This document shows, piece after piece, positions 32,684 to 32,752 of a stretch of DNA of 64,000 nucleotides; position 1 is the stretch's first letter, and each line of letters begins with the position of its first letter. The stretch lies in the NCBI GenBank assembly GCA_026399515.1, contig JAPLQT010000058.1, positions 25,213-89,212 on the forward strand. Direction: 5' to 3'. The DNA is from Pseudomonadota bacterium. Lineage in GTDB: Bacteria > Pseudomonadota > Gammaproteobacteria > Burkholderiales > Rhodocyclaceae. A model generated the notes under the pieces. That model saw nothing but the letters and a program-made list of their open reading frames with translations, made no database searches and was not told the DNA's origin. The position numbers and the translations under genes are program-made.

Positions 32684-32752
32684 ATTTCTCAACGAACGCG
32701 GACGGTGCTGCTTGCCGTCCGCTTACGCGACGGCTTCCGGCATTGCTCTGCA
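32684..32752 (+). promoter_or_regulatory. double-hairpin leader element, copy A (upstream of primase)
   Basis: About 66 nt nearly identical to 54398-54463 on the minus strand (two differences). Hairpin 1: GCGGACGG / CCGTCCGC with a 9-nt loop. Hairpin 2: GCCGTC / GACGGC plus an inner GC pair; it uses the 3' arm of hairpin 1, so the two exclude each other. Both differences between the copies fall in loops. It ends 12 bases before the primase ATG, just before the AAGGAG site. Confidence 0.7.

Follow-up and report, generated by a model that had tools for sequence, protein, structure and literature searches.

The window analyzed here is a 64,000-nucleotide (nt) stretch of contig JAPLQT010000058.1 from a Rhodocyclaceae genome (assembly GCA_026399515.1), and the element under study is a leader that stands in it twice in nearly identical form. 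Copy A, on the plus strand, precedes a Toprim-domain primase-like gene, and copy B, on the minus strand, precedes an erf recombinase gene. A sequence-only reading had pointed out that about 66 nt are shared by these two loci, and a BLAST search bears this out (E = 5e-28). A third copy, C, stands before a yqaJ-type exonuclease gene. The interval given in that reading (32684-32752) proved too short, however: the shared element reaches further upstream, into a promoter-like module located before the hairpin. Modules with the same spacing are found in the window before the primase, erf, yqaJ and ssb genes and before a small open reading frame (ORF), on both strands (Table 1).

Table 1. Promoter-like modules, leaders and associated genes in the 64,000-nt window
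Feature	Position	Strand	Score or evidence
Promoter-like module A, GTTTTTAT-N14-CCAACTC-TCT-TGAAC	32621-32657	+	35.3 bits, best site
Leader A (contains 32684-32752)	32658-32764	+	
Long interrupted hairpin of leader A, 3x3 internal loop CUU/UUC	32698-32751	+	predicted fold
Toprim-domain primase-like gene behind copy A	32765-33898	+	Pfam Toprim_2 5.5e-9; relatives in 21 plasmid records
Gene P0006, 337 amino acids (aa), sigma2-like N-terminus and XRE-type helix-turn-helix region	36361-37374	-	TIGR02937; HTH_25 3.7e-4
ssb gene behind module D	50770-51192	-	Pfam SSB 3.9e-41
Promoter-like module D (site 51353), before ssb	51319-51355	-	32.3 bits
Module F (site 53406), weakest of 23 sites, no convincing gene behind it	53371-53408	-	22.4 bits
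erf recombinase gene behind copy B	53637-54383	-	Pfam ERF 7.6e-18
Leader B, long hairpin 54399-54452, fold as in A	54384-54494	-	predicted fold
Promoter-like module B	54495-54531	-	34.4 bits
Promoter-like module E (site 54732), before 100-aa ORF	54730-54766	+	31.4 bits
Leader E hairpin	54795-54839	+	z -2.96 for 54767-54855
100-aa ORF behind module E	54856-55158	+	no Pfam match
Promoter-like module C (site 55416)	55414-55450	+	31.7 bits
Leader C hairpin, same 7-bp stem, 3x3 loop CUC/UUC, 6-bp apical stem, compensatory changes	55501-55536	+	
yqaJ-type exonuclease gene behind copy C	55557-56654	+	Pfam YqaJ 4.7e-14

With positions 32600-32800 as the BLAST query against the window, copy B was recovered on the minus strand (54529-54375) with 121 of 156 positions identical (E = 5e-28), and the runner-up match had an E value of 0.088. 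Counted by eye on the alignment, copies A (32684-32752, plus strand) and B (minus strand, about 54402-54471) differ at 3 of 69 nt. The earlier statement that both differences fall in loops is correct for the hairpin region, which contains two, and misses the third, located in the 5′ flank (32688). Allowing up to three mismatches, the seed CAACGAACGCGGACGGTGCTG occurs twice in the window, against a mean of 0.01 in shuffled sequence.

Upstream of the hairpin, both A and B carry TTTTAT, 14 bases and CCAACTCTCTTGAAC, and every copy is preceded by the directional motif YTTTTAY-N14-VCAACTC-N3/4-TGAAC. The strict motif occurs 14 times in the 5.3-Mb source genome, always on the same four of its 139 contigs (five matches on C74, the contig of the window, two on C80, four on C94 and three on C130), while the reversed pattern does not occur at all; since these four contigs make up 4.4% of the assembly, finding 14 of 14 matches there has a p value of about 1e-19. 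A loose pattern matched 11 times across the whole genome versus 3 times when reversed, and TTTA-N16-CAACTC was observed 14 times against 0.12 expected. Among 399 genomes of the order, the strict promoter pattern was found in the source genome only. C74 encodes ParA, ParB, TrfA-type replication and TraG/TraD-type genes, C80 has a PRTRC parB gene scoring above its cut-off, and the four contigs are taken here as putative plasmid contigs.

A three-block weight matrix recovered 23 sites on these contigs (14 on the plus and 9 on the minus strand), with scores of 22.4 to 35.3 bits that are flattered because the matrix was trained on those sites; 10 Markov-1 control sets yielded 0-2 matches above 14 bits per set, the best at 20.1 bits. 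In the 21 best-scoring sites, each of the four T's of TTTTAY is conserved in 20 or 21 and the A in 20; CAACTC varies only at its first and last base (conserved in 19 each). A matrix-free spacer histogram of the same contigs peaks at spacer 15 (16 occurrences; next 2), not at 14. The sites are also oriented toward genes: for 18 of the 23, the next 200 nt downstream contain the Shine-Dalgarno start of an ORF no shorter than 60 aa, versus 2 of 23 when the sites are reversed and 20% of 4000 random positions, and under looser criteria 21 of the 23 have such a start within 320 nt, with leaders of 48-161 nt. No TTGACA/TATAAT-type (sigma70) site was found in 32500-32800, the scan being made at copy A only. 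A ribonucleotide reductase gene (C94 63806-66160, minus strand; locus L056 4507-6861; Pfam Ribonuc_red_lgC 1e-125) lies close to where the promoter sites of C94 cluster.

Relatives of the window primase were found in 21 plasmid records and relatives of YqaJ in 875, all at less than 60% identity, with hosts including Cupriavidus, Burkholderia, Pseudomonas, Aromatoleum, enterobacteria and others; 7 of 10 plasmid records inspected are of the MPF_F type. Viral-contig searches with YqaJ and primase returned no confirmed relatives. The related sequences analyzed for promoter-like sites were EM10, pBVIE01, plasmid 1 of Aromatoleum aromaticum EbN1 and P. koreensis p3, each in whole, and 400 of the 599 kb of RPME01. 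The layout on these relatives, a T-rich box, a 14-nt spacer and CATCTCC, is clear on EbN1 plasmid 1 and weaker on pBVIE01, P. koreensis p3 and EM10; it precedes yqaJ on EbN1 plasmid 1, pBVIE01 and EM10, and primase on EbN1 plasmid 1 and EM10.

On EbN1 plasmid 1, 32 sites of the form TTTTAC-N14-CATCTCC-N4-TGCAG score above 15 bits, versus 0-1 in four controls. They include those before yqaJ, PRTRC parB and the start of a primase-like match that lies upstream of the annotated primase start. A Shine-Dalgarno start is found within 150 nt of 31 of these 32 sites (8 of 32 reversed; 21% of random positions), and in 29 of 32 the start codon is no more than 60 nt from the box (median 34). This short stretch also includes the ribosome site, so that a second -10 element could hardly be placed downstream; the distance fits the box itself being -10-like. 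pBVIE01 has 23 sites above 15 bits (controls 3-8), yqaJ among them, with starts downstream of 16 of 23 in the forward direction, 5 reversed and 16% of random positions, and EM10 has 11 such sites (controls 0-2), those of primase and yqaJ among them.

A less circular test used matrices trained on the other plasmids and compared the count at spacer 14 with the mean of 15 other spacers. At a threshold of 15, this leave-one-plasmid-out comparison gave 12 against 3.4 on EbN1, 18 against 5.8 on pBVIE01, 17 against 6.5 on P. koreensis p3, 9 against 4.5 on EM10 and 7 against 2.7 on RPME01; at a threshold of 13, the corresponding values were 22 and 10.3, 34 and 16.2, 39 and 17.3, 19 and 11.2, and 15 and 7.9. 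The matrix-free histogram peaks at spacer 14 on EbN1 (15; next 5), pBVIE01 (7; next 5) and EM10 (5; next 4). Overall, the spacer tests give strong evidence for the layout on two replicons, support for it on two more and a weak signal on the remaining two. The histogram was used in place of an unmasked de novo pair count, which was swamped by repeats on EbN1 and pBVIE01 and produced no clear winner on EM10. Repeat statistics on EbN1 plasmid 1 are dominated by a CRISPR-like repeat, GTGTTCCCCGC..GGGGGTTGAAC (loci L132-L142), and many repeats were likewise seen in the pair count of pBVIE01.

The predicted folds of leaders A, B and C each consist of one long interrupted hairpin, in which a stem of 7-8 bp and a 6-bp apical stem flank a symmetric 3x3 internal loop (CUY/UUC). 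For copy A this hairpin has a predicted energy of -32.0 kcal/mol and a central pair probability of 0.98, versus -28.8 kcal/mol (3.2 worse) and 0.016 for the best fold containing hairpin 1, the alternative stem of the sequence-only reading. The two stems sharing an arm described there do both exist, but one long hairpin dominates the predicted folding. All 13 long-hairpin pairs are kept between A and C, with four two-sided and two one-sided changes, whereas in copy C hairpin 1 retains 2 of its 8 pairs. The arms were set by hand for these counts, since MAFFT placed the apical stem of copy C incorrectly. The 21 leaders of the own plasmid sites have a mean z of -1.87, with 11 below -2. The compensatory changes and the z scores are suggestive of a leader fold kept by selection, as had been proposed. 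Occlusion of the Shine-Dalgarno site does not exceed that in shuffled sequences (mean unpaired 0.54 versus 0.48, p = 0.17, 19 leaders; the site tends, if at all, to be more open), although single leaders vary in this respect and the one at C94 75254 is clearly more occluded.

A candidate reader of the module, P0006, is encoded in the window (Table 1). Its family was found by tblastn in 14 plasmid records, 10 of them shared with the primase records or with the 40 listed for YqaJ; EbN1 carries a further member (pairwise E = 4e-5). A 233.7-kb plasmid of Cupriavidus metallidurans CH34, taken to be pMOL30, also encodes a P0006 relative. A profile search (E up to 1e-10) placed the family in 6 of 16 genomes or records, namely EbN1, pBVIE01, RPME01, EM10, P. 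koreensis p3 and G216, and the four plasmids with the layout (EbN1 plasmid 1, pBVIE01, P. koreensis p3 and EM10) all encode a P0006 relative. The same search did not find the family on a Variovorax plasmid or in nine other genomes, eight of which have a PRTRC parB gene above cut-off. No excess at spacer 14 was seen where the gene is lacking, either on the Variovorax plasmid (400 of 801 kb; 2 versus 3.2) or in 100 kb around four PRTRC loci without the sigma-like gene (1 versus 1.8).

All nine aligned members of the family give HTH_3 matches with E values up to 1 (best 2.1e-9), and four of the nine match TIGR02937, the model for sigma70 and extracytoplasmic function (ECF) sigma factors, at E up to 0.1 (best 1.1e-6). 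With E up to 1, the N-terminal domains of eight members matched 18 NCBIfam models, of which 16 are sigma factors (best 1.7e-4), with no model matching more than four of the eight. The N-terminal domain of the family bears a weak resemblance to sigma region 2 models; unlike ECF sigma factors, P0006 falls below the curated cut-off and has C-terminal XRE-type domains. No gene on the four own contigs scores above the TIGR02937 cut-off.

What the sequences show directly is the motif with its spacing and direction, its confinement to four contigs, a comparable layout on related plasmids and hairpin covariation. These observations suggest that the module is very probably a plasmid-wide promoter or promoter-operator. 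There is a good, though not commanding, case that the A and B leaders form the downstream part of such a promoter unit, which would probably be read by a plasmid-borne sigma-like factor, and for the P0006 family as that factor the balance is slightly favorable. The proposed unit would consist of a -35-like, T-rich upstream element (TTTTAY), a fixed spacer of 14-15 nt, a -10-like CAACTC element (CATCTCC on relatives) and a start region, followed on the own plasmid by a 5′ leader of 48-161 nt, often structured, that extends up to the start codon. It would drive primase, erf, yqaJ, ssb and about fifteen other genes as one regulon. The reader would most likely be RNA polymerase carrying a divergent, plasmid-encoded sigma-like protein of the P0006 family, with a sigma2-like domain and, in the place of region 4, XRE-type helix-turn-helix domains; since this reader would be encoded on the plasmid, the plasmid could bring its own program into any host. 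The leader hairpin would act as RNA, probably as a 5′ stabilizing structure that leaves the ribosome site open. A wider and more tentative proposal, about evenly balanced, is that an undescribed class of sigma factors, in which sigma2 is combined with XRE-type domains replacing region 4, occurs on large plasmids of beta- and gammaproteobacteria and reads TTTTAY-N14/15-CAWCTC; box details (CAACTC or CATCTCC, spacer 15 or 14) would have co-diverged in each lineage, and the program would be independent of host sigma factors.

Several results weigh against these assignments, in which both the promoter and the reader role are proposed from sequence. As to P0006, its match to TIGR02937 (6.9e-4, residues 31-222) reaches 19.3 bits, below the cut-off of 42.9, and it is absent among the 24 places listed by a genome search with that model. 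An N-terminal profile gave two PDB matches, to a designed alpha-repeat protein (0.0088) and to an ECF sigma factor (E of 0.55), and a single-protein structure prediction was uninformative (predicted local distance difference test, pLDDT, 37.8). The sigma-like gene contains one in-frame TAA both in EM10 (199350-200393, minus strand) and in contig C91 of G216 (69429-70472, minus strand), which may reflect a degraded gene or something like recoding. A matrix scan found no motif site before the P0006 gene, and the putative link between P0006 and the motif is one of co-occurrence in 6 of 16 genomes or records.

As to the motif, the weight matrices used for the source contigs and for the scan of EbN1, pBVIE01 and EM10 were trained on the replicons they scan, and that the four contigs form one replicon is an assumption. 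On EM10, the sites show no clear direction (forward 8 of 11, reversed 6). In the leave-one-plasmid-out test at threshold 15, another spacer reaches 8 on EM10 (versus 9 at spacer 14) and 9 on RPME01 (versus 7), and at threshold 13 another spacer on EM10 reaches 23 versus 19. Matrix-free, P. koreensis p3 has only 8 at spacer 14 versus 7 at the next best, RPME01 shows no peak, and the strict TTTTAY box peaks clearly only on the own contigs (15) and EbN1 (8). The own form of the motif, TTTTAY-N15/16-CAACTC, occurred 9 times in 15 other genomes or records (PRTRC genomes or related plasmids), versus 9 in controls. Covariation of the hairpin is drawn from two independent sequences, A/B and C.

The strongest alternative, itself rather unlikely, is that an activator or repressor encoded on the plasmid binds to the motif and that the main sigma factor of the host starts transcription. 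P0006 could itself be this regulator without being a sigma factor, as its XRE-type helix-turn-helix, matched by HTH_3 throughout the aligned family, would allow. Precedent is provided by the CUP elements of the IncN plasmid pKM101, the closest repeated-operator analogue, in which a repeated upstream sequence precedes several plasmid genes and is recognized by a plasmid regulator; excerpts of PMC6289460 describe these elements as ArdK binding sites and report repression for one gene. Compared by description, the CUP sequence itself not being aligned, the motif here is promoter-like in geometry and present in more copies. Its direction and fixed 14-15-nt spacer, the lack of sigma70-like hexamers at copy A and the closeness of the box to EbN1 start codons, with little room for a downstream -10, all speak against a simple operator and in favor of a promoter.

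That the leader is a two-state RNA switch, either an attenuator or a control of the ribosome site, as the sequence-only reading had suggested, is improbable. The stems do share an arm in A and B, the two best folds of A are 3.2 kcal/mol apart, the leaders are more folded than shuffled sequences, and when leaders A and C are folded in full, a small stem covers the Shine-Dalgarno site just 3′ of the long hairpin. However, the alternative stem is hardly kept in copy C, the ribosome site is no more occluded than in shuffles over the 19 leaders, Rfam has no match at gathering score and no run of T's follows the hairpin in A. The Rfam 15 scan returned only three group II intron matches at gathering score for the whole window, and for 32560-32800 a single sub-threshold match (13.5 bits versus 35).

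Recent duplication or gene conversion without function is a very poor explanation of the system as a whole, even though the A-B match far exceeds any other in the window: the near-identity ends before the coding regions, 21 further module sites stand on four contigs at near-constant spacing, and a similar layout precedes yqaJ and/or primase on three other plasmids. For the promoter module, duplication is refuted; it may still account for how closely leaders A and B, taken alone, resemble each other. A DNA search with the leader found no further close copy in the source genome and gave only weak partial matches in 2 of 100 relatives and 5 of 368 genomes of the class, those inspected being chance-like; the same search of PLSDB returned two weak Rhizobium records. 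A pair of matches on contig C4 of G076, considered as a second plasmid, showed no similarity on inspection. An exact-pattern scan for the hairpin found 13 stretches in genome contigs, from apparently unrelated organisms, and none in viral contigs.

The earlier suggestion of a folded single-strand promoter or priming site, acting on the entering strand during conjugation like the Frpo/ssi sites of F and ColIb-P9, has real likenesses in its favor: the conserved element folds, and it precedes ssb, primase and recombinase genes that suit early establishment, just as excerpts of PMC11541004 describe for ssb and other early plasmid genes. According to the same excerpts, anti-defence, methyltransferase, SSB and toxin-antitoxin genes among the 300 most prevalent families of the leading region are confined to the transferred strand, and TTGACA/TATAAT boxes served in the search for new Frpo candidates. 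Here, in contrast, A, C and E stand on the plus strand and B, D and F on the minus strand within 23 kb (14 and 9 among all 23 sites), B and E diverge from points about 200 nt apart, so that one entering strand could not serve both, no TTGACA/TATAAT-type box is found at copy A, and the fold lies outside and downstream of the conserved boxes. The site orientations largely refute a single-strand promoter, which is now scarcely credible.

For a plasmid-wide promoter with its own reader, the closest working analogue is SigN of pBS32 in Bacillus subtilis, a plasmid-encoded sigma factor with a mainly plasmid-restricted regulon that shares -35 and -10 boxes and includes genes of nucleotide metabolism and DNA replication (excerpts of PMC6751061). 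As in that system, a directional two-box motif with fixed spacing precedes many plasmid genes and not chromosomal ones. There are differences as well: SigN belongs to a Gram-positive host, has been shown to act in vitro and in vivo and activates its own gene, whereas P0006 is only weakly sigma-like, has XRE-type domains at the place of region 4 and lacks a site before its gene. Judged by the listings and the first lines of abstracts, neither the motif nor the P0006 family is described in the papers listed by searches of open PMC full text, the literature covered as distinct from subscription papers and preprints. The two-box motif does not appear in excerpts of PMC9045368 on C. metallidurans, which stress the RpoD boxes of the host for genes acquired horizontally and a contribution of other sigma factors.

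If true, a sigma-like factor encoded on the plasmid, together with a dedicated promoter, would offer one more answer to the open question of how large plasmids achieve gene expression in new hosts, namely that the plasmid brings its own reader. The proposal makes testable predictions for sequenced strains such as A. aromaticum EbN1, with 32 candidate promoters on plasmid 1 alone, and, if confirmed, could supply orthogonal promoter parts.

Among the remaining features of the window, the 100-aa protein behind module E has relatives in 103 plasmid records (84 Pseudomonas, 12 Cupriavidus). Module F may be a relic or belong to an RNA gene; short inverted repeats were noted by eye downstream of it. 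Right behind the primase gene and a terminator-like stem (the latter seen by eye) lies a group II intron (34034-35756, plus strand; Rfam RF02001, RF01998 and RF00029), whose ORF at 34201-35685 resembles, by eye, its reverse transcriptase. A relaxase label given by eye to the ORF at 37946-39964 was dropped, there being no Pfam match. Finally, a secretin gene (Pfam Secretin 1.2e-13) and two prepilin-like genes (N_methyl 1e-6 and 2.2e-6) in 58739-62332 on the plus strand are perhaps part of a type IV pilus block.
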